A stretch of 64,000 nt of DNA from Halichondria panicea (lineage: Eukaryota; Porifera; Demospongiae; Suberitida; Halichondriidae): contig NC_087384.1 of assembly GCF_963675165.1 (NCBI RefSeq), forward strand, positions 86,001 through 150,000, in the 5' to 3' direction. A program made the translations under genes and the position numbers. The notes beneath the pieces were generated by a model. It searched no databases. It saw only the letters and a program-made list of their open reading frames with translations, and was not told the DNA's origin. Position 1 is the first letter of the stretch. Each line of letters opens with the position of its first letter. This document shows, piece after piece, positions 1 through 56,035 of the stretch.

Positions 1-2772
1 CCGTGTCCCACTTCGTATCGTACTGCCCTCTCTCACTATGTGGACATCACCTCTTGTCCTCGTACCAACGTACTCAGGGAACTGGCCGACTTTGCATCTG
101 ACTCCACCCACAAGGACTTTCTGTTACGCATCACCTCTCCCACAGACGAAGGAAAGGTGAGGGTTCGGAGTGGGCGGAGTGCTGTGTGTGGCTTTACTTG
201 CAGTCAGTGATGTGCCAGCATGTATTACACTGTGTTTGTAGAATGGCTGATTATTTTCCCTCCCCTCACCCCCTCCCCCCATCCTCTAGCGTGAGTACAG
301 TGAATGGATAGTGAAGGACAAGAGGACTATAGTGTCTGTGCTGGAGGACCTGCCTTCCTTCAAGCCACCATTAGACTACCTCCTGGAGCTACTGCCTAAA
401 CTACAGGCCAGGTACTACTCCATCTCTTCATCACCCAAGGTGAGTGTGTGTGTGTGTCCAATGCAAGGTCAGGTGAGTAGTGGGTACATGTACAGTACAT
501 GCTGGCTGGGTTTAGAGCTTGAACTTCACTGTGTGGTTGATAACTTTTGGATAATTCTCTTGTGTTTAGCATTTCTCCTTTATGTACTAAGGCAGTATAG
601 TGGTGCATGGTGTCATCAGTGCCCCCCCCCCTCTCCTAGGGCAGTATAGTGGTGCATGGTATCATCAGTGCCCCCCCCTCTCCTAGGGCAGTATAGTGGT
701 GCATGGTATCATCAGTGCCCCCCCCCCTCTCCTAGGGCAGTATAGTGGTGCATGGTGTCATCAGTGCCCCCCCCCCTTCTCCTAGGGCAGTATAGTGGTG
801 CATGGTGTCATCAGTGCCCCCCCCTCTCCTAGGGCAGTATAGTGGTGCATGGTGTCATCAGTTCCCCCCCCTCTCCTAGGGCAGTATAGTGGTGCATGGT
901 GTCATCAGTGCCCCCCCCCCTCTCCTAGGGCAGTATAGTGGTGCATGGTGTCATCAGTGCCCCCCCCCTCTCCTAGGGCAGTATAGTGGTGCATGGTGTC
1001 ATCAGTGCCCCCCCCCCTCTCCTAGGGCAGTATAGTGGTGCATGGTGTCATCAGTGCCCCCCCCCCTCTCCTAGGGCAGTATAGTGGTGCATGGTGTCAT
1101 CAGTGCCCCCCCCCTCTCCTAGGGAAGTATAGTGGTGCATGGTGTCATCAGTGCCCCCCCCCCTCTCCTAGGGCAGTATAGTGGTGCATGGTGTCATCAG
1201 TGCCCCCCCCCCTCTCCTAGGGCAGTATAGTGGTGCATGGTGTCATCAGTGCCCCCCCCCTCTCCTAGGGAAGTATAGTGGTGCATGGTGTCATCAGTGC
1301 CCCCCCCCCTCTCCTAGGGCAGTATAGTGGTGCATGGTGTCATCAGTGCCCCCCCCCTCTCCTAGGGCAGTATAGTGGTGCATGGTGTCATCAGTGCCCC
1401 CCCCTTCTCCTCAGGTGCACTCCACATCCATCCACATAACAGCAGTACTGGTGGAGTATATCACTAGGACTGGCCGCACCAACAGAGGAGTCACCACCTC
1501 ATGGCTCAAGAGACTACAGACACAGCGAGAGAATGGTGGGTGGCTTCATGACGAGTCTAGCTTCCTAGAGACTCAACTGTTGAAGGAGTAATCCAATGCT
1601 TAGAAAGTACACCTACACTTGTCAATGCAATGATTATAAGTACATGTTTGGTGGCAACTAGGCCTCACATTGGCTCACATTATATTCCTTATCGTATTAC
1701 TAGTGATAATCTACTTGTGTGTTGTATGTATCTACTGTGTTGGATGCAGGTGGTCCAGAGGTGGTGAGGATCCCTATATTTGTCCGTCACTCTAGTCTAC
1801 GCCTCCCGTATCGAGCTATCTGCCCAGTGATGATGGTGGGGCCGGGTACTGGGGTGGCTCCATTCAGAGGGTTCATTCAAGAGAGGAGCGTCATCAAGAG
1901 CAATGGTGTGTTTATATGAAAGCCTACAAATACTGTGTAACAGGTATATAGTACATACTGCTGTGTGTACACTGGTTGCCCCCACATCCTTGCCACAATT
2001 ACCTGGAAGCCTTCTTCCTCAACCACAAACCTAGCTTCTACACTTCATTATATATAACAATGTGCCTATTGTGGACTCTCCCCTCAGGCAAGCAACTGGG
2101 TCAGACTGTGCTCTACTTTGGTTGTCGTAGTAGCACGGAGGACTATATATACAGGGATGAGTTAGAGGGATACAGAGACTCTGGTGTGTTGAGTGACCTC
2201 CAGGTGGCCTACTCCAGGGACACACCTCAGAAGGTGTATGTGCAACACAAGCTCATGGAGACTGGGGCAGCTGTGTGGAGTCTGCTGGAAAAGCAAGGCT
2301 ACTTCTATGTGTGTGGGTAAGTATCTGTATAATAGCTAGTGGTGTTCCAGTATGGCCGGATAGCCTGAACTATGTGAGATTATTGTTGGCACGTAAAGAT
2401 ATGATCTGTATTTGATATCTATATTGAGTGTTTTTGGTTTCCATGGCATTGAATTGATTACTTACTATAACAAAGGCAATTCCTTGTTGCTGCTGTCTAC
2501 TCTATACTGACAGTTTGCAATTCCTAAGTCATCAGATTGTTAGTGATACTATAACAAAACAAGCCCAACAGTTTGCTCAATAGTGCCTGTCTTTGAACTC
2601 ATTGTCGCATGTCTTTGTCACATGCAGTGATGCTCGTAACATGGCCAGAGATGTACAGAACACACTCATCCAGATAGTGGCAGTACATGGACAAATGGAC
2701 ACTTCAGCTGCTACAGAATATGTCAAGAAACTGCAAAAGAGAGGACGCTATATTCAAGACGTCTGGTCTTGA
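1..2772 (+). CDS. POR: NADPH-cytochrome P450 reductase, C-terminal part (5' end outside window)
   Basis: Six exons: 1-156, 290-439, 1415-1535, 1750-1905, 2088-2316, 2628-2772 (stop), all GT-AG with matching phases; 318 residues are in the window. The enzyme passes electrons from NADPH through FAD and FMN to microsomal P450s. This part covers the connecting, FAD and NADPH domains. Visible motifs in order: PCPTSYRTAL, the FAD-binding RYYSISSSP, GRTNRGVTTSWL, the nucleotide-binding MVGPGTGVAPFRGFIQER, FGCRSSTEDYIYRDEL, KVYVQHKL, YVCGDARNMARDV, and a C-terminal DVWS whose aromatic residue stacks on FAD in this family. The protein aligns almost without gaps to vertebrate POR from memory. The FMN domain and membrane anchor must lie left of the window. 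The intron before exon 3 is mostly a minisatellite made of acceptor-like units. The gene is convergent with the AdipoR gene. Confidence 0.95.
590..1411 (+). repeat. Minisatellite of about 17 units, each ending like a splice acceptor
   Basis: About 17 head-to-tail copies of a 47-50 bp unit, nearly identical apart from C-run length. Each unit reads GGCAGTATAGTGGTGCATGG, then a TGTCATCAGTG stretch, then a run of 7-10 C, then TCTCCTAG. The last unit flows straight into the true acceptor of POR exon 3 (TTCTCCTCAG ending at 1414), so the array looks like amplification of that acceptor. Confidence 0.95.
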
Positions 2773-3090
2773 TTGAAACTGTTTATTATTAGGGGAACTT
2801 TGAGTTTTATTTATATAATTATAGTATGTGTGCGTGTATATAGTGTATATAGTGGAGAACTGTTCCTGGTTTTAAATTGAACAGAGTTTGTATAATTTAT
2901 TGAAGGTATAATTATTATTTTCTTGCTCTACATGTATTTCATGATCAATTGCTATGGCAACTAGTAATGCGGCCCTGATTAAGTGTTATAAACTGGCATA
3001 CTCTAATCTTTATTTAAAATTAATAATAATTATCACAATTCATGATTTGTGTATGATATAATTATGCAGCAAAATAAGAAATAATAATAA

Positions 3091-4182
3091 TTATATAGCA
3101 AGCATATCAAATGGAAGACTCTCAATGCAACTACCAACGTTGAGACGGTATGTGATCATGTTCAACAGTGCATTGTAGTGAACCAATGCAGCCGTGACCA
3201 CACACACATGAAACAGTTGGTGACTGCTGGCCCAGATATCGAATTTACCCGGAAAGAATCGCTCAGGAATCCTCATAACGTATAGAGAAGCTCCAAATAT
3301 GTACACAGCCCCCATCAATACAAAGCCCCACAACGAGTATGCATGAGTCGACACTGTGTAGCCATCCCTGAGGAATATGTGCATGAAAGGAATTGCAGCG
3401 TACAGTCCAAACAGCACAAAGACAGTGAATCGAAGTGCTCGAAATCTAGGAGTTGCAAACTTGTTCCACATGCTGACACACACACACAGAGTGCAGAGAC
3501 ACAGAGAGACGACTATGTAGGCATACTTGGCATAGGTGGTGCAGTAGAAGCCATAGTAGTAGGCAGGTACCGAGGAGCCGGTTATGAGGAATGATATACC
3601 AGTATAGTCAAGTCTGCTCAGAACACCGTACACTCCCTTCGAATGGTTAGAAAACGTGTGAAATATCGCAGAACAGGCCAAGCACAATACAGCACCACCG
3701 AAGAAGCACAACAGAGTGGCCTGCTCCTGCCACGGTAAATCGTGTATCTGGATGTCCTCGAAAAGAAACGTTATGTAATCTCCAAAGATGTACACACCAG
3801 CGACTAGCATGATGAAGAATAGGGCACCAAGGAGATGGGTCCAGATATTGAATGTTTCTGTGTGAAGACGAAACATGCTTTTAGCACATCCACGGAATGA
3901 GTACATTGGAGGACGGTGGTTGTGTTGGAGGAACTCGTTGTCTCTCAGCCAATCAGGAAGGGAGTCAAATGGAATAGAATGCCATGCCCAGCTCACAATC
4001 TTGTTGATTTTCGAGCTAATCTTCTTTTCCAGGTCTGGTATTGAGATGGTAGGAAACAAAGAAGGGGAAGATGAACGGTTCTCGATCTCCTGTGTTGTTG
4101 GTAGCTTGGACTGACTCTCAGGACTTGGGGTTTTCTTTGAGGACTTCGAGTGCTGTCTTCGTCTTCCTTTGGAGGCAGGCAT
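3091..4182 (-). CDS. ADIPOR: Adiponectin receptor-like PAQR protein (intronless)
   Basis: A single 363-codon ORF starting at an ATG (4180-4182). AdipoR proteins are seven-pass membrane proteins with an internal N-terminus and zinc-dependent ceramidase-type activity. The first 100 residues are polar and basic (PASKGRRRQHSKSSKK). The PAQR core follows, from about residue 95 (SFRGCAKSMFRLHTETFNIWTH). Metal-site histidines sit in SAIFHTFSNHS and in SHQLFHV. RIPERFFPGKFDIW is a signature of the AdipoR1/R2 branch rather than the progestin-receptor branch. Length is close to human AdipoR1 (375 aa). It is head-to-head with ARPC3 (345 bp between start codons) and tail-to-tail with POR. The complete lack of introns contrasts with POR and ARPC3 on either side and may reflect a retrocopy or ancestral intronlessness. 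Confidence 0.93.
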   Translation of the reverse strand: MPASKGRRRQHSKSSKKTPSPESQSKLPTTQEIENRSSSPSLFPTISIPDLEKKISSKINKIVSWAWHSIPFDSLPDWLRDNEFLQHNHRPPMYSFRGCAKSMFRLHTETFNIWTHLLGALFFIMLVAGVYIFGDYITFLFEDIQIHDLPWQEQATLLCFFGGAVLCLACSAIFHTFSNHSKGVYGVLSRLDYTGISFLITGSSVPAYYYGFYCTTYAKYAYIVVSLCLCTLCVCVSMWNKFATPRFRALRFTVFVLFGLYAAIPFMHIFLRDGYTVSTHAYSLWGFVLMGAVYIFGASLYVMRIPERFFPGKFDIWASSHQLFHVCVVTAALVHYNALLNMITYRLNVGSCIESLPFDMLAI

Positions 4183-4527
4183 TGCAATGGGTCAATCAGA
4201 GATGTCAGATCTTGAGGTTCTACGAGATATTATAGCTTTCTGATGGCTTTCTCATGCGCATATGCCTTCTAGTTCTAGCTTCTGCATCGAATGATCGATC
4301 CCATGATGGCGTGTTGCCACGCCCATGCATTTTTTGTTTACGAGCCACACCTTCTTTCGTTGTTAACTTTCTCCCGTATTTTCTCTATGACAAGGCTTGA
4401 GAGACTACCCTCTTTTCTGCACGTGAGTCTCAAGCCCAAACTTGGTCATCTGAGCTCAGTGTTCAACAACAGTTAATTGTGGAAGAAATATAACTTTGAC
4501 TGGGATTGGAAGAAGTGGACATTGACA
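4183..4527. promoter_or_regulatory. Divergent promoter between AdipoR and ARPC3
   Basis: 345 bp separate the two start codons. No TATA box or long ORF is evident. Both 5'UTRs and both promoters must fit here. Inferred from geometry only. Confidence 0.5.
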
Positions 4528-6297
<1,770 letters not shown>

Positions 6298-6874
6298 ACA
6301 TACTCACAAACATTTTATTTTATTTGTGTAGTTGGTTTTGAGTAGCTGAATTTTGAACTACAATAATTATATTATAGTGTAGCAAATTAAGTTATAATTA
6401 GCCTCCTTCCCAGGCCCATGGTTGTGCAGTTCTGATTGTATTTCTGGTTATAAACCACACCCACATACAATTATACCCACATACAAGCTGTTCGAGGGCG
6501 GTCTGGAATCGAGACTTGCTATGATTTAGTGGGAGTGTCAGTTGTGTTTACTTCCGGAGTTGATTTGTTATCTATAAACATCCATCCATGCAGAGTTGAG
6601 TCAATGGTGAATGAAGCACATATCAAAGCTCGTCTGAACTAGCTATTGTGATCAAGAGAAGATTCTCGTGGTGTTCCTGATAGCCTTGGTGAGTGTGTGT
6701 ATGTGTTAATATACTCTTAGTGGTCCTACACACTTTACACTGTGTCTTGTATAATGCACAAAACACTCATTGATAAATGAGTATGGCAGTTTGCAGTGTA
6801 CTATGTTCTAGCTCTGGCCTGTTATAAGTATTGTAGCTACTCCAATGGCATTCATGTACCAAGCAATTAGCATG

Positions 6875-7094
6875 CAGCTCAATGAAGGCTAGTAGGCATT
6901 CTCTTACTGCCAGCTCAATGAAGGCTAGTAGGCATTCTCTTACTGCCAGCTCAATGAAGGCTAGTAGGGCATTCTCTTACTGCCAGCTCAATGAAGGCTA
7001 GTAGGGCATTCTCTTACTGCCAGCTCAATGAAGGCTAGTAGGGTATTCTCTTACTGCCAGCTCAATGAAGGCTAGTAGGGCATTCTCTTACTGC
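6875..7094 (+). repeat. 36-37 bp tandem repeat, six copies
   Basis: Six copies of a unit starting CAGCTCAATGAAGGCTAGTA and ending CTCTTACTGC, differing mainly by one G. Confidence 0.95.
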
Positions 7095-8149
7095 TTTTGA
7101 TATCTGAACAATTGAAGTGTCTAATAGTTTTGCTATTAAACTAACTGTGCTATCTATCATGCTGTGAGGAGGTACTTGCACTGGCTGTGTGTGTGCATGG
7201 TCTAGTGTGTTGGCAGAGCCGTGGCTAGGTCATAAGACAGCTGTAGCTAGGGCCTTCCTGAATGTACTTATATGTCCCTGTGTTTGGCGCAACTGTGTAG
7301 TGCATTTGGGCTCACCTCTGAAGTCAGAGATTAGAGGAAGATCCCTCATGTGTTTATATTCCATGATACTGCAACGCTTTCACAAAATGATGTTTTAGGT
7401 ATTTATTTCCAAGGTGTGTGTTTGATCATGTCCCCTCAGTAGCTAATAGTAGCTGTGCCTAGATAAGAGCTGTTGGGTTGTCTCTGTGGTGATGGCCAGT
7501 GTGTGGTGAGAAGGGTGATTATGTTGTGTGTGCAAGTTATCCCCAAAACACCACACACTGCTGATAGGGTATGGGGACGGAACATGAGGGAACATTGTGA
7601 CCATGAGGGAACATTGTGACCATCAGAGCTTGTGCTGGTCATTATTACAATGCTCATGTCCTGTTGTTCATTAACTCAAATATCTCACAGTTTTTATGGG
7701 GCATTTACTAAACTGTCTTTGATGTACGTGCGAATATAAGGTACTGTGTTGTGACTGCCTAATGTGAACTTGAGTACTTGGTTGTCCATGTTTTTACATT
7801 CCATCATGCTCTGTGGGGGTTATCAATCTCTGTGGGGGTTCTCAGGTTGAGAACAGCTCCTATAGTGTCAGAAGACGTTAAGCGAAGGAATTTTCTCTGT
7901 AAAGTTATGCTTATAGAGATATTTCCCCGATGCTATCACTTATTTATTTAACAGTTAGACCTCCAGTTGGACTTGTTCATAGCATAAAGAAGTGACATAC
8001 AATAGCAATCACTGGTTGTGAGTGTGTGGTGATGTTGAAGATGGTAGTGATGAGGTGATCCTCACTATCTCTTTATCTCCTTTGTGCCATGATTTATTGT
8101 CAAAACTAACTTACTCTGATCTGTGGAATAACTTACTCTGTGGCTGTAA

Positions 8150-8440
8150 TGAAGAAGTGGCCTAGCACATGCTGTGGAGCTTGTATAGCCTGGCTGCATT
8201 ATAGAGGGTGGCCTATATTTACTAGCACATGCTGTGGAGCTTGTATAGCCTGGCTGCATTATAGAGGGTGGCCTATATATACTAGCACATGCTGTGGAGC
8301 TTGTATAGCCTGGCTGCATTATAGAGGGTGGCCTATATATACTAGCACGTACTGTGGAGCTTGTATAGCTAGCCTGGGAGGGTGGCCTATATATACTAGC
8401 ACGTGCTGTGGAGCTTGTATAGCTAGCCTGTGAGGGTGGC
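8150..8440 (+). repeat. About 60-bp tandem repeat, five copies, related to a dispersed family
   Basis: Units begin TAGCACATGCTGTGGAGCTT and contain GCATTATAGAGGGTGGCCTA. The TATAGAGGGTGGCCTA core reappears at 30867-30900 and, inverted, near 21645, so it belongs to a dispersed repeat. Confidence 0.9.
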
Positions 8441-9087
8441 CTGCTTATACGTAACCACATTAGACTAGAGTACCCAAAATATGCAATTGTTAGCATAAAC
8501 CATTTACTAGGTCCAATCTTGTTATGACTTTGCTTAGCATGGCTTGTTTGGAATTTAACTATCGCCATATGTGGGAAGAAGCCATTTGCCCGGTCCGCCA
8601 GTAGCCCTGTCGAGACATGTGTGTGGAGTGGGTGAGGGGTAGTGTGTGGAGTGGGGTGGTGTGTGGAGTGGGGTGGGTGGGTGTGGGGTAGTGTGATGTG
8701 TGTAGAGCGTCAGAGTTAGCTCTTTCTCGTATTGCGTGTCCAGTAAAATAGTGGACATAATTCATTGTCCATAAGCACATTCATTGTGTACTTTTGTGTC
8801 TATTGTACTGCACACAATATATTGTTGTTAATTAAATTCACAACTCCTAATAGATCAGTTGTATAGAGTCAGACTACAGGCTCGATGTTACCATAGTTAC
8901 CTACATGAATGCCATCTGTTACCATGGTTACCTACATGAATTCCATCGGCACTTACTAAAGTGCAATATAGTGTCGAGGTGACATGATGCCTCGAAAACA
9001 AAACGCCCAAACTAATGTATGTAAAAAAAAAGAGTTTAATATGAATAATTATGTTTCCTAGTACATGTACTGTCATTTTGTGGCAGC

Positions 9088-9190
9088 TATAGTCACGGTG
9101 ATGGCTGTAGTCACGGTAATGCTATAGTCACGGTGATGGCTATAGTCACGGTGATGGCTGTAGTCACGGTGATGCTATAGTCGCGGTGAT
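9088..9190 (+). repeat. 17-18 bp tandem repeat
   Basis: About six copies of a TAGTCACGGTGATGGC unit. Confidence 0.9.
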
Positions 9191-10082
9191 GACAGTGTGA
9201 CCATACACTTACGTGGAACTAGAGTAGGGATCGTGCTAATGGTTGAAACCTGAGGCCGTAACTTTGAAAGGTTTGCTTCTCAATCATCTCTCTGATTTGG
9301 ACCACAAGTTGATGGTCATGCAGAGACAGTGTCTGTGTATGGGCTCAGATAATTGAGAATCAAAGGATGACAGCTACACGAATGTGTTCACACTATGCGT
9401 GACTTAGAAACCTCTCAATCTCTTTGTGACACGACACTATGTGGTTATAAAGATACCCTCTTAGTTTAAGTGTGGGGCTATAGAAGAGCAGCTGGTCGTT
9501 CAACAGGAACACACAATATGTTATAATGAAAGTGCTGACACTGCATTCCTGTCTAATGACCACTTCACTGACTGCTGAATAGTTGCAAGACTTGTGTGGT
9601 CTATTTCAATGACCTCTGCACTTGCGATAATTATCATAACCTTAACATAACATCCCCTAGCTCTATATATACACACGTAGCAATCCACACACAGTTATAG
9701 CCACGTATCTGTGATAGTACTCTGTGTGTCTGTGTGTCTGTGTGTGGGTGTGTGGGTGTGGGTGTGTGTGTGTGTGGGTGTGGGTGTGCAGCTAGTACAT
9801 AACTTCTTATGGTTACTGTACATATACTTTGCCAGAAATGTCGCCTTTCAATTAGCGACCTTTCAATTAGTGACTTTTCAATTAGCGTTTACTCTCTGTA
9901 ATTTAAAGCAATTATAGTAGCTGCCATTAGCGCTATTGTCTCAGTGGTGTAGTGTGTGTATTGTGTGTATTGTGTGTATTGTGTGGCAGGTGGTGTTATT
10001 GTTGACTGTGTGTGAGAATGGTGCTGTTTGTACAGACTCACTTGTTTTGTAAACTTATACTGAAACTAAGTCTCTTGTACAG

Positions 10083-11798
10083 GACAGTGTATCAAAGTCT
10101 GGTCGTCATGGAGATTGCAGTCAGTCATCATCAGCCACTATTTTGTGGACCTGTACAGGTGAGCTTGGTGTGTGATGTGTGAGGTGTGAGGGGTGTGTGA
10201 TATGGATAGGTCAGAAGTGCTTGTACCTGGGCTGGCCTGCATGTTCTGGGAATGAACAATTGCAGTACCTAATAAACTGAACTAGCTATACATGTTGCCA
10301 AGAGTTCATTAACCCTAACCCTAATAAACGCTTGATGTTGCTATAGTGATGCATGCTAACTGCATGTGTGTTGTGTGACAGATATGATATCTTCTCTAGG
10401 ATAATTATAGGAAATTATGATTATTGCTTTTCAATGACACTGAGGTCATAGTTGTACACATGTGTGCACCTGTTTGGATGATCAACCAGTCCCTCTCAAT
10501 AGCTGTTGTGTGTATCTATGCAGGGCTATGCAGGGCTATTGTTTCTCATGTGTAGGCAGTTTATATTGTATGGACAGTGTATTGGATTACAGCCCTTGTG
10601 TCAGATATACTGCAATTGATGGCCTATTTGAATACAAGGTCATAATGGACACTAACTCTCAAAATTAAACGGAATATGTTCTTGAGAAGTGTAGGATCCT
10701 CACTATGGCCATCCTCTGCATAGTCTCATAACAAGGTCTAATGGACTGTTAATTACCTCAACATTTCAGAGTGTTCTTAGCTATTTGTACCTTCTACATT
10801 AAAGCACTTCCTTTATGAGCACAATATAGCAGTTGTGCAATCACACGCCTAGGTGACCTTGTAACTACCGGCCACAGTAATGGAGTGTGCCTCGACTGTC
10901 ATGTACATGCAGTCATGTGATATATACACACAGAGGGAGCCTGTGTAGAGTTTCAGGTTGAGCATTTTAGGAGTCCTTCTATCTGTACGTGTGAGAAGCT
11001 ACTATATTTCCTTGTATGTGGTATGTGATGTTTTGTACACGTAGGTTGACAAGAATACAATAATATGGTTGAAATAGCAAACACATGTACAGTGAGTGTA
11101 CTTCCCATGCTCTATAGGCGATAACATCATCTGTGTACTTGTGTAACACGCCCACACACACACACACACACGCCCACACAACAATATCTCAACACTTACA
11201 GTGGATTATGAGAACGTGCTAAGAATGTATTAATAGCTTCGATAATCATCTCAGGTTTATAGTCTTGGTATCGATTAGTCCGTCCTATATCATGTTGCTT
11301 TTCATATCTTCACGCTATTTAGTTTGCTGTATTTGTACATGCACACTGGAGATGAGAGTGCCTACACTTGTACACTGGAGATGAGAGTGCCTACACTTGT
11401 ACACTGGAGATGAGAGTGCCTACACTTGTACATGTATAATATATGTATAGCTATAGACAGAAGCCCCTGGACACTTGCATGGTTTCATCTCTCCCTGGCC
11501 ACTGTGGTGGAGATGTCTGGTGTCAGATAACATTTCCCTAACCTTGTGTGGTGCTGACTCAGCAGTAGCTAGAGTGGCGGACCATTAGCGGTGTGCATGA
11601 ATGGCTTCTACTGTGGCCACCTGGCTTTGTGTGGCCTTGGGGTTTCGTTGCAATAAAGATCAACCGTATTGCTCTGCCCTTGAGGTAAATGTGCGTTTTT
11701 CAAAATTAGATTTTTTAGTGCCGTAAAACCATGACCCATTATCATCTAGCTATGTACGATACAGTTGTCTATAGAGCTCTGTGTAGTTCTGACAGCTA

Positions 11799-11858
<60 letters not shown>

Positions 11859-15882: not shown

Positions 15883-16444
15883 ACAATTGATTCCTGACTC
15901 AGTGTAATAGACGATGCAACGATGCAACTGTTCAAGACAAATCGCATAATTATACTAACTTGTGTTGTGTTTGTGAAATTATTTTTCTATTGTAGAAGAC
16001 GTTGTATAATCACATGCCGTGTGCTTTAGAGTTACTGAAATCATTGTAGTTCAGTTTTATGTACCCCAACTCATCGTATGTCACTGCAATATTGTACCAC
16101 TGAAGTACACACATTTTTAAATGAAGATCATTATTTTTTTCGGGTATATAATTATATTCAAATTTAAGGTTCAATTAAATAGAGCATAGTTACATACAAT
16201 TGTAGTATCGTACACCGCCCCACCCCCCGGCCCGTGGCCTTCGTATCAAAGGCTATGGCCTATATCAATCTGTTAATGTGCAAGTAAACTCCGGCCATGC
16301 ATGACTGGATCTCGTAATTAGTAAAACCTTGACAAATTAATTATTAATAGTGCATGAAAATCACTAATTTATTGTAACAAAATTTACACACAGCCTGTAA
16401 CACAAGTACGAGTAAAGATAGTTTGTGTGGCTTGCTAGCTATAG

Positions 16445-33262
<16,818 letters not shown>

Positions 33263-36370: not shown

Positions 36371-36443
<73 letters not shown>

Positions 36444-39141: not shown

Positions 39142-39260
39142 GGGTATGATTGGTATGAATCGTTACAATAAAATAATAGTAAAATGCATGCAAATAACTC
39201 ATCTGGTAAGGTATCATCCAAATGACATTTGCACTACAGTCTACATGTGTGAGATTGAAG
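39142..39260. promoter_or_regulatory. Very short divergent promoter between TSEN2 and ANAPC7
   Basis: Only 119 bp separate the ATG codons, including both 5'UTRs. No TATA box is evident. Confidence 0.55.
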
Positions 39261-45453: not shown

Positions 45454-47238
45454 ATGGAATTCGACCTCGGAGGAGGAGAAGTAACTTTGCTACAGTTCAC
45501 ACCATTGAATGATAGCTACTCGCAGAGCTATGGATACGGCCAACAACAGATGCCTACATGCACAACTGAAGATGTGGAACTGTATGGTGGAAGCATGCAC
45601 AGTGTCAGTGGTTTCTCTACAACTGGAACTGCAAACTCAATGGAGATGTCTGCAACACCTAGTCCCAACCCTCCACCTGCACCAACAGCTATGCAGCACC
45701 CTGAGTACTATTGCCAAACAGAACAATATGCAATGGAGACCAATTGCCAATCCCCATACAGTTACATGAATCAACAACCAACAACTCAAGGCTACAATGA
45801 CTACATACACTCCCCTCAAGTGGCTAGCCCTGCAGTAAGTGCTGCCACAAGTTATGACAGTCAATCAGTGGACCTAGACAGCCTTGACATGCTCCTAAAC
45901 GATCCAATGGGTGCAGATCTTGGTCCTCAACCAGTACGTCTACCACGCTTAGAAGAAGAGCCTCCACGAACTAAAGAATCTGCTTACTCGAGCTCCACCC
46001 TTTTTTTACCTCATCGAGGCTCCAGCAGAAGCAATCCCCACAGCCCAATTGATATCAGGGTTAAATCAGACACACTAAAATCCTCTAGACGTCACCGGGG
46101 TGTTGTTTCGACAGCCTCTCTGAAGTCATTATCCAAGAGAGTGAGTTCCCCCATCTTTCCTGACTACTCCACCCCCCTTTCCTCCGTCAGTCTCAGCCGA
46201 CATCCTTCAATTACTAGCCTCTGCTCCTCAACCAAATCCGACCCATTCAGTAATGTAACTCCCTCTGTTCGCTCCGATCCTGGACCATATCGAATCCATG
46301 CCAACAACAATGCAGATTCAGCTAGCGAATCACCTTCCGTAATGTCAGCACAAGACTCTCAGAGATTTTTATTCACAAGCTCTGCATCAAGCACAGAGAA
46401 CATTCCAGTCTCAAGTGAGAACTCGAGTCGATCATGCATGGAGATTGCCATGCCAATGAAGCTTGCTCGTAAAATTACTGACCTGGACAAGAAGATAATG
46501 AAATTACAAGCAGACCGATCAAAACTTCTTGAAAAGGCAAAGGTGACCGGACCATTTAATGAGGTTATGAACGTTGATACTCGAATGCTAACTGAGAGAT
46601 CTTCGGAAATAGGACGAATACATTTGTATATTGTGCCTCTAGGCATACACGCCCTGGACGAACCATTGTATGAAGACGCTAATGCAACACTCAGACAAGT
46701 TGGCGGATTGTATTTCGACTATCAATCAGCTGTTGATAGCCTGAGGAGTAATTGCTGCAAGGGCATGGTCCGTCTCCCAGATATAAGCACTTGCTTTGCG
46801 TACATTAAAAGCCTACTAAACGAAAACCAACGACTAAAACTGGGCAATTCCATAGCAGGCTTCTGCAGGATACAGCTGGATCTAGACACGGCCACAGCCT
46901 CAGGCTATGCTGATGGGTCTGTCCCTACAGAGTTTGTAGAATCACTGCGAGTGGCTAATCAAGTTATGCAGTGTGCTCAGCAAATCACTAAAGCATACCC
47001 AACAGTACAGATGCATCTACAGCAAGTAAGACAAACCGCAGCAGCCAAGGCTGACAAATGCGATACAATTTGTCAGAGTCTAGGCATTATTGATAGAGAA
47101 AGAAGGACACAAATAAAGTCTGTTCTGGAGGGCAACTGTACGATAATGAGCTCAGTGGAGAGAGTGTGGCCGCAATATTATCAAGTTGCCACGGAGACAA
47201 TTAAAACTATAACTGAATGTATTCACCCTCCCGCTTGA
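45454..47238 (+). CDS. Intronless orphan with Tyr/Gln-rich N-terminus (594 aa)
   Basis: One uninterrupted ORF from ATG at 45454; I do not recognise the family. Residues about 1-135 are rich in Tyr, Gln, Ser, Asn and Met (NDSYSQSYGYGQQQM, PEYYCQTEQYAM, YSYMNQQPTTQGYNDY), a composition typical of prion-like or transactivation domains. Residues about 150-330 are Ser/Arg-rich and look disordered. From about 330 a regular helical part begins: ARKITDLDKKIMKLQADRSKLLEKAK reads as a short heptad coiled coil, followed by about 220 residues of mixed helix with scattered Cys. No basic region precedes the coiled coil, so it is not a standard bZIP. A role in RNA or transcription regulation is a guess from composition. 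Confidence 0.8.
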   Translation: MEFDLGGGEVTLLQFTPLNDSYSQSYGYGQQQMPTCTTEDVELYGGSMHSVSGFSTTGTANSMEMSATPSPNPPPAPTAMQHPEYYCQTEQYAMETNCQSPYSYMNQQPTTQGYNDYIHSPQVASPAVSAATSYDSQSVDLDSLDMLLNDPMGADLGPQPVRLPRLEEEPPRTKESAYSSSTLFLPHRGSSRSNPHSPIDIRVKSDTLKSSRRHRGVVSTASLKSLSKRVSSPIFPDYSTPLSSVSLSRHPSITSLCSSTKSDPFSNVTPSVRSDPGPYRIHANNNADSASESPSVMSAQDSQRFLFTSSASSTENIPVSSENSSRSCMEIAMPMKLARKITDLDKKIMKLQADRSKLLEKAKVTGPFNEVMNVDTRMLTERSSEIGRIHLYIVPLGIHALDEPLYEDANATLRQVGGLYFDYQSAVDSLRSNCCKGMVRLPDISTCFAYIKSLLNENQRLKLGNSIAGFCRIQLDLDTATASGYADGSVPTEFVESLRVANQVMQCAQQITKAYPTVQMHLQQVRQTAAAKADKCDTICQSLGIIDRERRTQIKSVLEGNCTIMSSVERVWPQYYQVATETIKTITECIHPPA

Positions 47239-47787
47239 TTTATGTTTGTTTAGCTCCAGTTCATAATCAAACCATCTATTCGTTTCATTTTCATAATCAA
47301 ACCATCTATTCCACGTATTAATTTTGTTCATTTCCAACATTACTGCGAGTAATGTATATACACTTGTTATTATTTTTAACATACACAATACAGAACCCAA
47401 TGCAGTGAAGGATTGCAGTTAATAATGAAATGCTTCATTCATATATGCATGCTGTTTCCATGACAAAACACGTACACATGTTAAAGGAATGACCAGTTGT
47501 TAGTGTGTAATTCTTTCAACAGTGATAAACAACACGAGTCACCATACCCAGTAAAGGCATTCAACTATATGAATGAATTCTCTAGCTCAAATCAAACTAC
47601 TGCACTCTACGTAAGATATTTAAGATTCCATTGGAGGCAAATTGTTACTATTAGATGCATCCAGGCTAATTACTATAATACCAACAGTCAAACATCGAAT
47701 AGCACAGAGATCGTATCACCTTGGATGAGTATCTGCTATAGACCATTTGTTTGTAAACAAGCAGAGAAGGAATTGACTGCATGAACT
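47239..47787. other. Intergenic stretch between two orphan ORFs
   Basis: It contains one 22-bp direct duplication (TTCATAATCAAACCATCTAT) near 47261-47310 and an open but unconvincing frame at 47497-47784. Nothing else seen. Confidence 0.5.
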
Positions 47788-48375
47788 ATGTTTCGACGTA
47801 AGCAGAAGAAGGAGATAGAGCTGCTCAGCATAGCAAAGAGAACTGAGGCTGCAAAATCTGCACCCAAAACATCTAGTGAGCTCAAAGCCAGGCGCAGAGC
47901 CGTGCGATCAATGTCGTTTGATCACAACCCAGAGCAGCTACAACCGTTGGAAGAGAAGAAATTTAGTCGGAAGCTGAGTGAACCTCTCCTAGAGGATACG
48001 GACACCTCAATCACATACACACCCCCTTCTGTTCAGGAAGCATCAAGAGCGGATGCAAGGCTTAAACTAATCGATGCTGATTCTGCTCAAGACACTAAAA
48101 ACAAACCAAGCACTGAAGTACACACATCCAGTTACACGATGAAAATAGTGCCTAACGAAAGGACTAATGGTAGTAGGGTGAAGTATAGACACAGCACGTA
48201 CGCCACAAGAGGGGGTGTGCCTAATGCATACCTCGCCCTCTTCAAGAATAGTCACGAGAATTTGTGTGAAGAGGAAGAAGATCTTCAAAGGCTAAAATTT
48301 GATGATTTGCCAGAAGTACAGAGAGACAGAACAAGCACAGAGAACTCAATGTTTGATGTATCATATGAATTATAA
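47788..48375 (+). CDS. Small intronless basic orphan (195 aa)
   Basis: ATG at 47788; not recognised. It is Lys/Arg/Ser/Glu-rich and probably disordered. It starts MFRRKQKKEIELLSIAKRTE. Two stretches resemble kinase or 14-3-3 docking sites: RAVRSMSFDHNP and FSRKLSEPLLED (RxxSxP). No membrane segment, no Cys motif. It follows the 594-aa orphan on the same strand by 550 bp; whether the two share a transcript cannot be told. Coding status rests on ORF length and codon composition alone. Confidence 0.55.
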   Translation: MFRRKQKKEIELLSIAKRTEAAKSAPKTSSELKARRRAVRSMSFDHNPEQLQPLEEKKFSRKLSEPLLEDTDTSITYTPPSVQEASRADARLKLIDADSAQDTKNKPSTEVHTSSYTMKIVPNERTNGSRVKYRHSTYATRGGVPNAYLALFKNSHENLCEEEEDLQRLKFDDLPEVQRDRTSTENSMFDVSYEL

Positions 48376-48556
48376 GTACGTACATACTAACTTGTACACA
48401 CAATCAACCATGCATGTAGACAGTCAATTAAACTATTTTTGCCATTTTTTAGCCCATTTACAGTTCACTATTAATTTTGTGTACAAAATAATTATACCCA
48501 CAAATTCATTACACACGATGAAATTGCATGCTTACCATTAATCCACAAAAGATTGT

Positions 48557-51500
48557 CTAAAAATGTTGTTGGCTAAGTTTATTGTTCAAGTATTGTAATA
48601 TCTGATGCAGCGTGTCTTTGTTCTCTCCCTCCACCCACTCCAGCTCGACACACAGTCCTTTGTCCTCAACGTCAAACGAAGCAGCCTTCCCACCAGGGAC
48701 AATCTTATGGGCTTTATTTGGGCTCAGTTTTCTCTTCTTCTTTGGGGAGTGTTCCATTTCATGGCCGGAAACGAGAGAGCAGATGAATCGCACATGACAT
48801 GGAGTAGACAGAGCTTCCAATTCATACAGAGCTTTATGTTCGGAGTCTCGAATATTTTCATTGATTATAGGAGCCTCCTCATTTGTGCCACCATCAGCAG
48901 AAGAAATTATCACAGCTTCTGTGTGAGTAAAAATCAATGATCCCATTGTAGCTAGCAACATTAATTTGTATCCTCAGCAATCTATGTACAGTACAGGATC
49001 TAATAAATTAACATCACTAGCCAGAGCACGATTTTACTCGCTAAGCACATGCCTTTGTCTTCCTTCCTCTGTCTGTCCAGACACTCAATTAGTCTCCTTC
49101 TTTTCCGTTGATGAGACCAAGTGTTCTTGATACCATGACAACGCAGTCGTACAGTCGAGTCTAACCCTGCCTCCTCGGTAACCTTCATCTGAAGAGAAGT
49201 AATGACATAATATTGTGGACGCTTCCTGTCATACATTGTAACTACTAGTACGATATAAGCTAACATTTAATAGTAATTTCTGTTAGCTTCGTTTAATGAA
49301 CTTACTGCCAGCTCTTTCATTTGCTTCACTAGCCACTCCCTGATCAGCTGTGTTCTCTCTCCACGAGATTTGGATGTGAACAACCCATAGAGAGGTTGTC
49401 GTAAACACAATGGCTTCTCCCTTCTCTTTCTGTTGCTAGTGTTGAGGGCAGCCACCTAACAACATAAGCTCAATTAATCAGACATTGTCCATAATATAAA
49501 AGTACTATAATAATTATAGTACAACACTATAATATGGTATATCAGAGGAGGTCCGACAGGCGCGGTGCAGCTCAAGCAATTAGCCTCTGATTACTCTCAG
49601 CAAACGTACGATGTGGGCGGTGCGTGGGCAGATAATTATTGTTAATTGCCTGAGCTGCACCGCACCTGTCGTACCTCCTCTGATGGTATATGAAGCATTC
49701 TACAAATTTCATAAGAGGATTGCTCCTGTTTCCACGGTAACTATCAGTATACACATGGACATTCTGTGTAGACCTTTTCCTTGAGTGATGAATCAAAGGA
49801 CCAGCCCAGTCCCCACCGCCATGTCCTACCCTGTACGAACTCTGTGCTGGTTACCACGGGAACCTGTGCGTACAAGTAAACGCTTGTGAACAAATACACA
49901 GCTAATTAACATCAATTACTGAAACTCAAAGTCTGCAATTTCTAACATTTGTTGTTGTCTTGAGCGATAATTGGACAACATTGTAGAGGAATCTAGGAGA
50001 GCATACAAGTGCCACAGAGATACAGTTACAGTGCTACGCTGCAGTTCATTAGTCGATGATCAAGACATGTGATGGATTACAGAAGAATGGATGATCTACT
50101 GGAACCATATCTCACTCACGCTGTTCTGTTTGAGTTGTGCCAGTAATGGTTTCAAGCTGCTCTTCTTCCCCAACATGGTTGTATACCACCTACAGAAGCC
50201 GACAAACACAAGCAGACCCAATTACACACTGCAAAGGAACTCGTGTTATACTGACCCTTGTATGCACTTTACACCCAAACAGATACCAATCAATACATGT
50301 ACATGCATGCTGTGCTGCTAGTAGTTCAAGCTTCTCTTTTTGTTAGATCATGTAACATGATACGAACAGCATCTTAATTTTATTAAGTCTCAAAGCTGGG
50401 TTGTCAGAATGACAGTATATAGCAATAGTCTAGTAATGAGGCGAAGTCAAACATTGGAATTGGTAAGAAAAAGTACCCAAACTTCACATGACTCACCTTA
50501 CCCTGTTTTTGAGTTGCAGACTGTCTTGTATGATCCTCCGAGTGAATGCCACCTCACCTCCCTGTGTGATGGCCTCCCCTGGAGAAGCACGGCTGAACGT
50601 CTCTGCAGGGGGTCTACGCCCACTATGAGTGGCCACACCCACTAAACGCTCCTCTGTGTCCTTGAAGAAGGGAGGGTTGCACATACAGAAGGTGTACTGA
50701 GACACAGCTGGGTCCATTGCCTCCATTAGCACAACCTCAGGGGTCACCGCCACCACTGGGGGTAAGAAAGCAAGACAGGGGGTCACTGCACAGGGGTCAC
50801 CTTCACCACTGGGGGTCACTCTACTGTGCTATAACAAGTATTACATGAACATATAATTTTCGAAGCTGTTTTAGAGTGATCATTGTACCAGAATAGCTAG
50901 TACACATGGTTTTATGAAAAACTCGATCAATAGCAGCCTTACAAAGCTCATCACAATGACTATAACGTAAGTACCAAGGATACTGGATACTCTACGCCCG
51001 AATATAGGCAGGTGGTCCAGCGTGTTGTTGTGTACGCTCATAGCTATGGTAAGAATGCCCATCTCTTAGTGGAGGCCATAGACAACACACACTGACACAC
51101 ACACACCTTCAATGAGTGCGTGTATGTTGTCGGCTTTATCAGATTAAGCATTGATGATGATCGTATGACTGCAATAAGAACCAATTCATCTATGATAACA
51201 CATGCATACCACAGGCCTATGACTGGCTACCAGCATGGAGACTGTGAAGGCATGGGGTTTCAGGTATAGATCAGAGGAGGAAACAGGACGGCCATAGTTA
51301 TAACAGATCCAATAATTGGAAGGACTAAGACAGGCAGTCTACAATATAGATTAAGGTGTGTACCTATTAAATTGGACATAAAATAACATTTTTATCATGG
51401 AATTACAAACAGGATGCACTAGTACATTAGACGAAGGCTTCAGTTGTTGCAATGACAAGCGACCCACCTTTGACTTTATGTGTGAGCCCATTTCTAGCCA

Positions 51501-52442
51501 CATTCTCTGTAGCTATAGCCACTGAGTCTTGATCAATATCAGTAGCCAGGAAGCTCCACCCATTCAGCCTCGTACCCAGGAGGGGGTAGATACACGAGGC
51601 ACCTGTCCCTACAAGACACAAGTACATGAATAATATGAGAGTTGATTAGTACCACATGGCTCTACTAAAATATGTCTTATGTTAAATGTGGTGCCACAAG
51701 GACTTTAATTATCTGCGTGATGACAGTCTTCACAATGTTGAATGGCACAAAGTGAGTGGGGGGGGGATCGAGGCTACTTTGTAAACATCTTTGTAAACAG
51801 ATGTCAAAATAAACAAACAACTTTGTTTGTGTACAAAGAGATATGACTTCATCTGTTGCATGATGTGCTAATTTGCCACTTACCAATGTCAATTCCAATC
51901 ACATCAGTAGTGGAGGACGTCTCCACACCCTCACAGCTCATCTCCACGCCCACACCAATTGTCTCCACACTCTCACAGCTCATCTCCACGCCCACACCAT
52001 TTGTCTCCACACTCTCACAGCTCATCTCCACGCCCACACCACTTGTCTCCACACTCTCACAGCTCATCTTCACGCCCACACCACTTGTCTCCACGCCCCC
52101 ACACAGTCCCAACAGATCCTCCACCCAATGAATATAGTTAAGCCGCTGAGGAACAGCTGGTATTAATTTGTCAAGTGGAATATCCACATCCAGACTGAAG
52201 TCCCTGGCCAGGACGGCACATGTCAGCTCTCGGAGGGACGCTGGGTCACTGAAATCAAGCGTGTATGGGAATCTCTTCTCAGTGGGGGATTTCCCTGGGG
52301 GAATTCCCTTTAACGAGGGGGCGGGGTCATCAGCCGTGTGAGTGGACTTGGACTTGTGGATTAGGTAGGGTTTAAGGGAGGGACGGAATTCAGCAAGCTC
52401 TCCAAAATCTGGTTTCGTGTTGTAACGATTTCTTGGATGCAT
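48557..52442 (-). CDS. METTL16: RNA N6-adenosine methyltransferase METTL16
   Basis: Eight exons: 52442-51884, 51608-51468, 50755-50497, 50189-50120, 49863-49774, 49455-49306, 49188-49053, 48918-48557; phases agree, 588 residues (human 562). METTL16 methylates U6 snRNA and MAT2A hairpins using SAM. Visible: start MHPRNRYNTKPDFGELAEFRPSLK; LNYIHWVEDLLG; SAM-binding IDIGTGASCIYPLLG (split by an intron); catalytic CMCNPPFF; RIIQDSLQL; RWYTTMLGKKSSLKPL; STEFVQGRTWRWGLGWSF; the C-terminal RNA-binding region ending ELEWVEGENKDTLHQILQYL, as in vertebrates. Oddities: a four-unit in-frame 42-bp repeat lies just before motif I, and intron 7 uses a GC donor (AAAG before GCATGT). A 144-bp TIR element is in intron 5. 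Duplicated sequence near 50780-50820 copies the exon 3 acceptor. Confidence 0.95.
49541..49684. mobile_element. 144-bp MITE with 43-bp terminal inverted repeats and GGTAT target duplication
   Basis: The left end ATCAGAGGAGGTCCGACAGG and the right end CCTGTCGTACCTCCTCTGAT are inverted repeats continuing inward through GGTGCAGCTCA..GCAATTA. GGTAT flanks both sides (49536-49540, 49685-49689). It lies in METTL16 intron 5. No coding capacity. Confidence 0.9.
51919..52098 (-). repeat. In-frame 42-bp coding minisatellite in METTL16
   Basis: Four full 42-bp units (51919-52086) and a partial one. On the coding strand each encodes a 14-residue variant of MSCESVETSGVGVE. Units differ at single codons (S/N/I, K/E). 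The array lies between LNYIHWVEDLLG and GIDIGTG. Confidence 0.95.
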
Positions 52443-52715
52443 AGCTGCCTGAATAAAAAATATGGTAGTGATATTTATGGGTTATAGGTTTTGGGACAAC
52501 ATCAACGTTGCTACAGACAACCTACTTACCTGAATATTACTCTCTGTTGGCTGTGCTGTGCCTTGAAGGTGAAGAAACTCTTGCTACACTGGGGCCCACA
52601 TGGAGCTGGGGGAATTCCCTGTTAGTGTGCAAACAAGGGGGTGGGGCTAGTATAGTAGTGAAGCCAAGGTGCAAAGAAGCCTGCTCCAAGATCCAGTGGG
52701 ATCCTCTGCTTCACA
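52443..52715. promoter_or_regulatory. Divergent promoter between METTL16 and the 52.7-kb gene
   Basis: 273 bp between start codons. No TATA box identified. Inferred from geometry. Confidence 0.45.
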
Positions 52716-55700
52716 ATGCCCTCCAGCGCTAGCGGTGCAGCTGACAGTGATGTCAATGGCGACCAGCCTAACATGTTCGAGGTCCTCTGCGAGAATGTGC
52801 ACACCTCAATGCTCACACACAACGGCACACTAGAGCAGGTACTACCTCAGTGTTCAGGTTGTAGCTATGTTTGTGATACTTCCCTTCCATACAATCCAGT
52901 TCTTTGATTTCAAAGACGAGCTATTAAAGGTAAGGTGGTTAATGTGTGTCTATAGTTAAGTTATTAATAGACATAGTTATATCTATTTACTCGGACTCTT
53001 TCAGCTGCCATAACTTGAATTCTGTGGATCCAATGTCAAATTTTTTTATGATTTTCTGAAAGCTTAGAAAAATACCTTTCAAATGGTGTCATCAAAAATC
53101 ATATTTGAGAGATAAAAATATTTGTCAATTTGCCGATACCATGGATTATAGCCCATGGTCCAAGGCCGAAAAATGACAAATTAGGGCCCCGAAAAAATTT
53201 TGGATTGCAACACATCATTTGAAAGGTCTCTTTCTAAGCTTTCAGAAAATCCTAACATTTTTGACATTGGATCAATGATACTCAAGTTAAGGCTGTTGAA
53301 AGATATTCAACTACACTCTGTTCATTCAATAGTTTGGGGATTCTTTCGGCTGCCATAACTTGAATTCTGTGGATCCAATGTCAAATGTTTGGGAATTTTC
53401 TGAAAGCTTAGAAAAAAATAGTTCAAATGGTGTCATCAAAAATCATATTTGAAGTATTTGCCAATTTGGCGATACCATGGATTATATAGCCCATGGTCCA
53501 AGGCCGAAAAATGATAAATTAGGGCCCCAACGAAATTTTGGATTGAAACACATCATTTGAAAGATCTCTTTCTAAGCTTTCAGAAAATCATAACATTTTT
53601 TACATTGGATCAACGGTACTAAAGTTATGGCTGTTGAAAGATGTTCAACTACAACCCCTCCCCCCGTTTAATCAATGGTTCGGGATAGGTCAGTGCAGCT
53701 AGCTAATTTGCTTTCTCTTTAGCATGCACTGCCTCCTAAACTACTTGCAAACTTGACCTTACTCTCTTCAAAACTCTTCAGAAGGTACGTTTCATATCAC
53801 CTCCATCTCTGATCCTCTATTCCACTCACTGTGTATATTATATAGTTACTCTGAGTTCAGTTTACCAGTGAATGAGTTGACTAGGATGGTGAGACAACAC
53901 TCCACTCCTTGGGAGGAGAGGGCCGACAGTTTGAAGGGCATTCGCTCGGACTATGACAGTATGAGGACCAAGCTGAGCATTGCACTCAAGAGGATTGAAT
54001 TGATGTCAGCCGGGGTACGTATTGAATCAGTGATCATACGTATGTACATTTAGTGTAAGGTACATTGGCGTAACTGTGAATGTGGTGTGGGGGTGTTGAT
54101 GTATAATAGAAAAAATGTTTATAAGTCTGAATTTATGCTCAGGAGGAGAGGATAAAGAAGGAAAGGAGGTTGGGTAACTGGGAGAGACTGTTTGTTAAGA
54201 CCATGGAGTCTGAGAGCCACGGCAGACGATGGAAGTTCAGGATAGAACCTCTCAAGAGGAAGATGCAACAAGATGGGTATGTGCACTTGCAACGTTGTAA
54301 CCAGCCACAAAACATTACTTCTTGGGGATCTGGTAGCCTCTCCTCCAAAACTGCCTTAATTAGTTATACTGATTACCAGCTAGCCTGTGTTCGCACACTG
54401 GTTATACTGATTACCAGCTAGCCTGTGTTCACACACTGGTTATACTGATACCAGCTAGCCTGTGTTCACACACTGGTTATACTGATTACCAGCTAGCCTG
54501 TGTTCGCACACTGGTTATACTGATTACCAGCTAGCCTGTGTTCACACACTGGTTATACTGATTACCAGCTAGCCTGTGTTCGCACACTGGTTATACTGAT
54601 TACCAGCTAGCCTGTGTTCACACACTGGTTATACTGATACCAGCTAGCCTGTGTTCACACACTGGTTATACTGATTACCAGCTAGCCTGTGTTCGCACAC
54701 TGGTTATACTGATACCAGCTAGCCTGTGTTCACACACTGGCTATACTGATTACCAGCTAGCCTGTGTTCACACACTGGTTATACTGATTACCAGCTAGCC
54801 TGTGTTCACACACTGCAGGTTTAATCCGTATCTCTCTGACTCTTCCGGTGATGATTCTGACAAAGATGATAACCAGAAGAAATACTTGGTAACTGAAATC
54901 AGTGACATGATGACCCCCCATCATGCGCACCAACCCCCCACAGAGCACTGTAGAGAAGAGCGAGACTGAACTGAGTGAATCGGATGATGACACTGACAGA
55001 GAGAGCTCCAGCATGGTACACAGTAACTACCTACATATGTGCAGTGTTTTGACCTACGTGTAAATGCATATTGATACAGCATGAAGTGGAGCAGGTACAA
55101 GCCACACCCACCCCACCTCCTCCTCCGATAGAGACTGCCGAGTCAGCAGCATGTACCAAGGACCCAGACTATGACCAGTAAGTCCTGCACACTTAATCTC
55201 AACTACGTATGCACATATATCTGTACATGATATTACTTGTCTGACTACCTGCAGGTACTTGCTTGTTCAGCTGTACAGGCCAAATGGATTATTAAAAGGT
55301 ACATATGTATAAATATCCTTGCGTCCATTTTTAGGTATTTTCTATATAGGGAAGGATGTGTGCTGTACTCTAGCCTATGGACAGGAGTACTACACTACCG
55401 ATGTCTACCCTGGAAGGACAGATCCTGGCAGCGTGCTTACGTATGTCAGCCATACCAATACAAATTTTTGTTAATTCGTGTTCTAGCATTATCTAGCTAG
55501 TCCATCATGATTGTGTTATGTCCTGCCAGGCATCAGAGCTTCCACTTCAAGTTGAGTGATGACGCTGCTCGCACTCTGCCCCCTGAGAGGCAAGAGCCCT
55601 TGGACGCCATTGATGTCTCTAAGGTCACACTGACTGTCTACCCTGGGACCATTGCTCAGGACATGGCCGCCTATCTCTCCATTGTATTGAAGGAGCTGCA

Positions 55701-55722
55701 TATAACTGTGCGTGAGAGCTAG
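52716..55722 (+). CDS. Unrecognised 361-aa protein with coiled-coil/acidic regions
   Basis: Eleven exons: 52716-52838, 52900-52929, 53723-53784, 53846-54014, 54143-54276, 54819-54888, 54944-55015, 55080-55177, 55255-55298, 55350-55440, 55530-55722; all GT-AG with consistent phases. It begins MPSSASGAADSDVNGDQPNMFEVLCENVHTSML. Residues about 45-160 look helical and charged (NELTRMVRQHSTPWEERADSLKGIRSDYDSMRTKLSIALKRIELM). A short acidic Ser/Asp linker (SDSSGDDSDKDDNQKK, ELSESDDDTDRESSS) and a Pro run follow. The last 130 residues (YDQYLLVQLYRPNGLLKGKDVCCTLAYGQEYYTTDVYPG, then SFHFKLSDDAARTLPPERQEPLDAID) look like a compact beta domain. I cannot name the family. Intron 2 holds two MITE-like copies, intron 5 a 38-bp minisatellite touching the next acceptor, and the stop codon lies in the first unit of a 47-bp minisatellite. 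Confidence 0.75.
52997..53305. mobile_element. Palindromic MITE-like element, tandem copy 1
   Basis: The left arm starts CTTTCAGCTGCCATAACTTG, then TGTGGATCCAATGTC; the right arm is GACATTGGATCAATGATACT then CAAGTTAAGGCTGTTGAAAG. The centre contains ACCATGGATTATAGCCCATG and GGGCCCC. Confidence 0.88.
53342..53643. mobile_element. Palindromic MITE-like element, tandem copy 2
   Basis: It has the same structure as the copy at 52997 and is about 90 percent similar by eye, separated from it by a short spacer (CACTCTGTTCATTCAATAGT) that also occurs, inverted, at about 21078-21095 beside the MYO18-intron copy. Confidence 0.88.
54367..54815 (+). repeat. 38-bp minisatellite ending at a splice acceptor
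   Basis: About 12 copies of TACTGATTACCAGCTAGCCT plus GTGTTCACACACTGGTTA, with one-base deletions in some. The final copy changes from CACACTGGTTA to CACACTGCAG and becomes the acceptor of exon 54819. Each unit also carries TACCAG. Confidence 0.93.
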
Positions 55723-56035
55723 CACACTAGCTGGTGTATGTGTTGTATGCTACTGTGCGTGTGAGCTAGCACACCAGCTGGTGTATGTGTTGTATGCTAC
55801 TGTGCGTGTGAGCTAGCACACTAGCTGGTGTATGTGTTGTATGCTACTGTGCGTGTGAGCTAGCACACTAGCTGGTGTATGTGTTGTATGCTACTGTGCG
55901 TGTGAGCTAGCACACTAGCTGGTGTATGTGTTGTATGCTACTGTGCGTGTGAGCTAGCACACTAGCTGGTGTATGTGTTGTATGCTACTGTGCGTGTGAG
56001 CTAGCACACTAGCTGGTGTATGTGTTGTATGCTAC
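55707..56035 (+). repeat. 47-bp minisatellite that includes the stop codon of the 361-aa gene
   Basis: Seven units starting TGTGCGTGTGAGCTAGCACA and ending GTATGTGTTGTATGCTAC. The first unit contains the last codons (ACT GTG CGT GAG AGC) and TAG of the upstream gene; the rest form the 3' flank. Confidence 0.93.

Follow-up and report, generated by a model that had tools for sequence, protein, structure and literature searches.

Tandem-array ends accumulate at predicted acceptors in a sponge genome, and arrays crossing exon edges match chance expectation

In the demosponge Halichondria panicea, minisatellite arrays lie at many exon edges, and their placement differs between two classes. In a window of 64,000 nucleotides (contig NC_087384.1, positions 86,001 to 150,000, or C8:86001-150000 in the 131-Mb genome of 39 contigs), whose genes are animal-like (POR, MYO18, METTL16 and others), and in four further stretches of the same genome, arrays that span an exon edge are about as frequent as random placement predicts, whereas array ends that stop just inside the intron are in clear excess. 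The latter are found chiefly at acceptors, and their base composition matches that of the splice signals they adjoin. An earlier note on this DNA had proposed that minisatellites repeatedly nucleate on exon edges; the pattern it described is real but was overread, and the proposal is thus partly supported. The pattern probably reflects neutral placement in short introns, combined with intron ends that are prone to repeats, C/CA-rich on the 3' side and G/GT-rich on the 5' side, and still function when expanded.

Tandem Repeats Finder (TRF) returned 71 rows for the window, which were merged into 38 arrays with a period of at least 10 bp, and these arrays consist of head-to-tail units as expected of minisatellites. 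Exon edges are mostly predictions of a purpose-written hidden Markov gene finder, whose training data were the window and a further 250 kb of this genome (C1 and C2, 100 kb each, and C5, 50 kb). A fifth stretch, the 40 kb adjoining the window (C8b), was fetched once the counting rule had been fixed and served as a later test. The output comprises 31 genes of at least 100 residues and 516 introns, with a median intron length of 208 nt; short introns are also described for the sponge Amphimedon, with a median of 81 bp in its draft genome (PMC3412847). Errors of the gene finder include 16 microexons within the POR array, fused neighbouring genes and one skipped piece of METTL16. Exons shorter than 45 nt lying in an array were discarded, which removed the POR-array microexons.

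Placement was assessed for the 99 intron-touching arrays of the five stretches, leaving out wholly exonic arrays (nine in the first four stretches, three in C8b) and arrays outside predicted genes. An array was counted as crossing if it spans an exon edge and as abutting if one of its ends lies 0-6 nt inside the intron. For the null, each array was shrunk to one ancestral unit and placed uniformly, either over all intron positions of its stretch, edge crossing being permitted (unconditional), or only in the intron where it lies (conditional). A boundary, in most cases a predicted one, was overlapped or abutted by 32 of the 99 arrays, against 18.8 expected unconditionally (P 0.0007) and 21.5 conditionally (P 0.004). 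Crossing arrays numbered 13, with 15.0 and 16.9 expected under the two nulls, whereas 19 arrays were abutting, with 3.8 and 4.7 expected and 0 of 50,000 draws as high. The enrichment over random intron placement that the earlier note had anticipated therefore holds for abutting arrays and fails for crossing ones. Doubtful crossing calls were retained in the count, namely 5640-5679 in the window, 47843 and 99113 in C1, and 44478 in C5, those of C1 and C5 resting on weak gene models.

Similar results were obtained with subsets of the arrays. Without low-complexity units (n=76), 10 arrays crossed (12.0 and 11.8 expected) and 12 abutted (2.9 and 3.0, P < 1e-4), giving 22 for the two classes together (15.0, P 0.03, and 14.8, P 0.02). 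When the window was excluded (n=74), the counts were 8 crossing (9.7 and 11.7) and 13 abutting (2.7 and 3.5), or 21 together (12.4, P 0.007, and 15.2, P 0.05), and removal of both the window and the low-complexity units (n=57) left 14 for the two classes together (9.8 and 9.9, P 0.09). Among the 11 arrays of C8b, for which the rule had been fixed beforehand, none crossed (1.6 expected) and three abutted (0.45 expected, P 0.008). In the window itself, 11 of 25 intron-touching arrays cross or abut an edge, against 6.3-6.4 expected (P 0.02-0.03). That count was 12 before a hand correction, as the array at 27874-27955 was first taken as crossing and its donor near 27948, 18 nt off, was corrected before the final count.

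The abutting arrays favor acceptors over donors, 15 to 4 (P 0.02). Array ends lie 0-6 nt from an acceptor in 14 of 88 cases, 7-13 nt in two and 14-20 nt in one, and the corresponding numbers at donors are two, four and two. With each array weighted as one unit, density in the window and C1 reaches 7.1% (17/239) at 10 nt before acceptors, as compared with 0-1.6% at 60-100 nt and a mean of 2.5%. By raw coverage, arrays occupy the site 10 nt before the acceptor in 19 introns out of 345, as compared with 19.3 for interior positions; raw coverage is inflated in the interior by long arrays, which is why one-unit weighting was also used.

Composition follows the side of the intron on which an array lies. 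Read in the sense direction, 20 of 21 acceptor arrays have more C than G, as compared with 0 of 11 donor arrays and 34 of 67 others, typical array ends being CACACACGCAG|AG, CCTTCTCCTCAG|G and CACACACACAG|G at acceptors and AG|GTGAGTGTGCGTGTG at a donor. The intron ends themselves show the same orientation. Of 489 introns, 43 have a (CA)n run in their last 20 nt and four a (GT)n run there, and in the first 20 nt 22 have (GT)n and seven (CA)n. In the introns of the window and of L002-L021, (GT)n-donor and (CA)n-acceptor tracts thus exceed the reverse orientation several-fold, with none in C5. Among 30-nt windows, the C/CA-rich share is 16.6% in acceptor tracts and, in sense, 1.4-2.3% in the intron interior. 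AG is absent from 10 of the 15 acceptor-abutting arrays, and 14 of the 15 lack an in-array acceptor that comes within 1 nat of the one used, POR being the exception. The suggestion that every copy carries a usable signal accordingly fails for these 14 and stands for the POR array, those beginning at 24940 and 26467, and a few others.

The POR array (plus strand, 587-1411, found by TRF) has 17 copies of a 49-bp unit and ends 3 nt short of an acceptor (CAG|GTGCAC, CAG|GTGCACTCC) whose exon starts at 1415. This acceptor, called by the gene finder, agrees with homology, as the model aligns across the exon join to solved NADPH-cytochrome P450 reductase with no gap there; the 292 aligned residues include a single gap, of 2 residues, at a distance from this join. 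The copies hold the acceptor-like CCTCTCCTAG|G, and 16 in-array acceptors lie within 1 nat of the used one. They also contain TCTCCTAG|GGCAGTATAGTG|GTGCATGG, a 12-nt in-frame microexon-like piece (GSIV) that the gene finder called many times and that is probably an artefact.

In MYO18, on the minus strand, both classes occur. A TG/CA-type array at 17388-17545 (sense CTGCACACACA; TRF, gene finder) stops 1 nt short of a predicted acceptor, and a CA/C-rich (sense) one at 24437-24541 stops 4 nt short of the acceptor GCAG|AGGCGT predicted by the gene finder. A 62-bp duplication of 1.9 copies at 27394-27512 ends in a pyrimidine tract 2 nt short of the acceptor of exon VIDMFRG (gene finder, homology). 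On the donor side, the GT-rich (sense) array at 27874-27955 was modeled by the gene finder as crossing the donor; homology favors a donor 18 nt upstream (AGG|GTGAGT), which leaves the array some 10 nt within the intron. Among crossing arrays, a 35-bp duplication at 24064-24134 spans a donor predicted by the gene finder, such that AAAGAG|GTGGGTG occurs twice. This two-copy repeat, detected by TRF, had been placed at 24061-24127 and is confirmed. At 24940-25273 (TRF, gene finder), a 42-bp unit repeated 7.8 times includes the donor GAGCTAGCAG|GTGATC and a (TG)n tract, and seven in-array donors score within 1 nat. The 32-bp unit repeated 9.5 times at 26467-26770 (gene finder, homology) contains the acceptor TATAG|ACGTACCTA; the resulting join, SVK|TYLLEK, is ungapped against myosin-11, and eight in-array acceptors score within 1 nat. 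The MYO18 motor model has several gaps relative to homologues, with about 130 residues between two aligned parts unmatched. All arrays named in the earlier note were recovered by TRF, and those of POR and MYO18, as well as the one at the 54818 acceptor described below, do lie at exon edges.

Such a distribution probably has two ordinary causes. With short introns and many arrays, a 30-50-nt unit dropped at random would often overlap an edge, and a duplication spanning a splice site would be tolerated, one intact site being left; chance overlap with such tolerance would cover the crossing arrays in full. Intron ends are often expansion-prone low-complexity tracts, with C or CA prevailing ahead of the acceptor AG and G or GT behind the donor GT. 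After expansion the tract would still be a working one, usually AG-free, and the exon would halt the array, such that ends would accumulate 0-6 nt short of it, chiefly at acceptors. CA-rich RNA is bound by hnRNP L, one way in which CA tracts could act. Low-complexity functional tracts are the likeliest cause of the abutting excess, with tolerance in splicing presumed and tract composition, not splicing itself, as the presumed main cause.

The composition account is likely but not complete, and the answer depends on how arrays are counted, as raw coverage and one-unit weighting disagree. In raw coverage, C/CA-rich windows lie within arrays in 16 of 76 cases at acceptors, 51 of 102 (sense) and 24 of 77 (antisense) in the intron interior, and 10 of 38 between genes; acceptor tracts are thus in arrays less often than interior ones (P 0.002) and about as often as intergenic ones. 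With one-unit weighting, in contrast, in-array rates are 0.21 at acceptors and 0.19 for G-rich donor tracts, against 0.07-0.09 in the intron interior and between genes.

Several observations weigh against the composition-based explanation or limit its reach. Under one-unit weighting, 26 of 459 acceptor windows lie in arrays, against 10.4-10.8 expected from composition, and 21 of 459 donor windows, against 8.1; the remaining excess may stem from mutation or from selection. The effect is uneven, since edge arrays before the hand correction numbered 12 of 25 in the window, 17 of 40 in C1 and 3 of 11 in C8b, with 0 of 14 in C2 and 1 of 9 in C5. Homology supports exon edges only in POR, parts of the MYO18 motor and POLB, the rest being predicted; the DNA polymerase beta model (in C1) shows a one-residue gap and one long insert, a coding repeat, relative to solved homologues, and a GH16-like gene model matches homologues only partially. 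When local duplications were simulated on array-free, hence shorter, introns and TRF and the gene finder were re-run, edge fractions were 33, 23, 26 and 15% in four stretches; the real combined count, 30 of 88 (34%), compares with a simulated mean of 26% and a highest value among 20 runs of 28 of 77, which makes the combined excess modest. The abutting excess is unlikely to have been made by the gene finder, as real arrays transplanted to random intron places (one array >1,500 nt excluded) abutted predicted edges in a mean of only 0.67 (sense) and 0.75 (antisense) of about 81 cases when the gene finder was re-run, but the transplants were kept about 15-18 nt from true splice sites, and small edge shifts are outside the reach of this control. 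Direct-repeat seeds, measured as 7-mer repeat coverage, were not found to be denser near acceptors (0.094-0.105, against about 0.10 in the interior), although in the window alone they are slightly so (0.118 vs 0.093). Seeding by short direct repeats was rejected on the basis of this similarity.

That splice sites are true hotspots of minisatellite birth, through some mechanism connected with splicing, transcription or nucleosome edges, appears rather unlikely. The abutting excess and the one-unit density peak before acceptors would be expected of such hotspots, and so would the residual excess of about 2.5-fold beyond composition under one-unit weighting. However, a hotspot should also raise the number of crossing arrays, which is neutral, edges show no clear enrichment of direct-repeat seeds, and no effect is seen in C2 and C5. 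The shared process of amplification at splice sites invoked earlier is not needed, the units being different and the seeds not clearly enriched. It is similarly doubtful that 3' splice sites, and 5' sites less so, are genuine birthplaces of minisatellites in this lineage, where the C/CA tract before AG would expand several-fold more often than equal tracts elsewhere. If they were, splice signals would seed intron growth and supply new AG-free pyrimidine tracts.

Pure chance, with many arrays, short introns and zero bias, is more improbable still. Crossing arrays do occur at expectation, in the simulations of local duplication 15-33% of arrays, depending on the stretch, fell no more than 6 nt from an edge (per run, 13-28 of 70-80), and once low-complexity arrays are set aside, 19 of 66 in the first four stretches (29%) lie at edges, against about 25% simulated. 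Against it stand the abutting excess that persists without low-complexity units and without the window, and the strong match in composition.

The arrays might instead be remnants of intron birth, in which an AGGT-bearing segment of an exon is tandemly duplicated; this model is published (PMC4974935), and some crossing units (24940, 24064) carry AG|GT. This origin is very improbable here, as it requires repeats at both ends of one intron and none of the edge arrays listed comes within 6 nt of the two edges of its intron at once, that at 26467 leaving 54 nt of non-array intron on the donor side. Intron gain by AGGT duplication was rejected, as in none of the edge arrays listed does the segment supply both ends of one intron. 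Fish AC-GT introns, the subject of work by Lin and colleagues in Genome Research, reportedly have GT-rich 5' and AC-rich 3' ends, and the pairing of such ends would replace U2AF. The tracts in the sponge share this orientation in a minority of introns, GT-donor and CA-acceptor tracts occurring together in 7 of 345 (odds ratio 3.5, P 0.015), but the mechanism is scarcely credible here, since own-intron ends pair at -17.5 kcal/mol and ends of different introns at -18.0 (319 introns), and preferential own-intron pairing was not found, 95% of 40 permutations having a mean pairing at least as stable.

Arrays at exon-intron boundaries are already known, and the accumulation of array ends at acceptors is the added point. 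Internal tandem repeats at such boundaries have been reported in human genes within segmental duplications (PMC2812944). They resemble the present arrays in their minisatellite-size units (about 30 bp) and in the coding repeats of other exons; they came to light because paralogues differ in copy number, with support from transcripts, whereas the arrays described here come from genomic sequence with mostly predicted edges and add the accumulation of array ends at acceptors with matching composition. In a potato RdRp gene, a tandem duplication across an intron-exon boundary, which likewise copied splice signals, is described as having generated a new intron (PMC4974935), an outcome unlike that in the sponge, where none of the edge arrays listed extends from one end of its intron to the other. 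CeRep25B, found in introns of C. elegans close to alternative exons (PMC4039745), is comparable as an intronic minisatellite tied to splicing decisions; it is a single repeat family, whereas the units here are mostly dissimilar and abut predicted splice sites. No published report of array ends accumulating at acceptors was found among the matches listed, judged by title and abstract opening and with subscription journals mostly uncovered.

Arrays at splice sites alter intron length and can provide spare splice sites, and hence a route to new isoforms. Short introns easily make arrays seem to seek splice sites, and crossing arrays need only chance. Array ends that stop at acceptors with splice-signal composition bear on whether functional pyrimidine tracts are mutation-prone.

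Other arrays of the window add to the picture. On the plus strand, a 38-bp unit repeated 12 times (54363-54815) ends 3 nt short of the acceptor CAG|GTTTAATCC predicted by the gene finder. In the same region, a 47-bp unit repeated 7.1 times (55705-56036, plus strand; sequence reading, gene finder) lies at an exon 3' end. The exon enters the array, and reading on leads to the stop codon noted earlier; the gene finder instead prefers a donor 3 nt inside, so what was read as a stop codon could be a donor. On the minus strand, a GT-rich (sense) array at 32192-32280 begins 6 nt past the donor GTGAGT predicted by the gene finder. A weak 21-bp two-copy repeat with 85% matches (5640-5679, plus strand; TRF, gene finder) overlies a predicted acceptor of an ARPC3-like exon; it was counted as crossing and is probably a coding coincidence.

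The METTL16 array (51919-52094, minus strand; TRF, gene finder) had been listed as an edge case and is none, being an in-frame coding repeat of 42 bp, or 14 residues, in 4.2 copies, with the nearest predicted exon edge 35 nt away. It sits just ahead of the DVIGIDI piece of the methyltransferase. An in-frame 17-residue coding repeat (51 bp in 2.5 copies, L007:5458-5585) likewise occurs in the DNA polymerase beta gene, where it forms the insert relative to solved homologues. In a PDZ-domain gene, a 42-bp unit repeated about 111 times (4.7 kb, L004:5129-9807) ends 3 nt short of a predicted acceptor. The array units at 8162-8423 and 30863-30899 have the stretch ATTATAGAGGGTGGCC in common, and some units may thus derive from a dispersed repeat and not be unrelated. 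A 338-bp tandem pair with 88% matches and a CATAACTTGAATT motif (52993-53653) looks like a dispersed element, similar pieces being visible by eye near 27585 and 56120.

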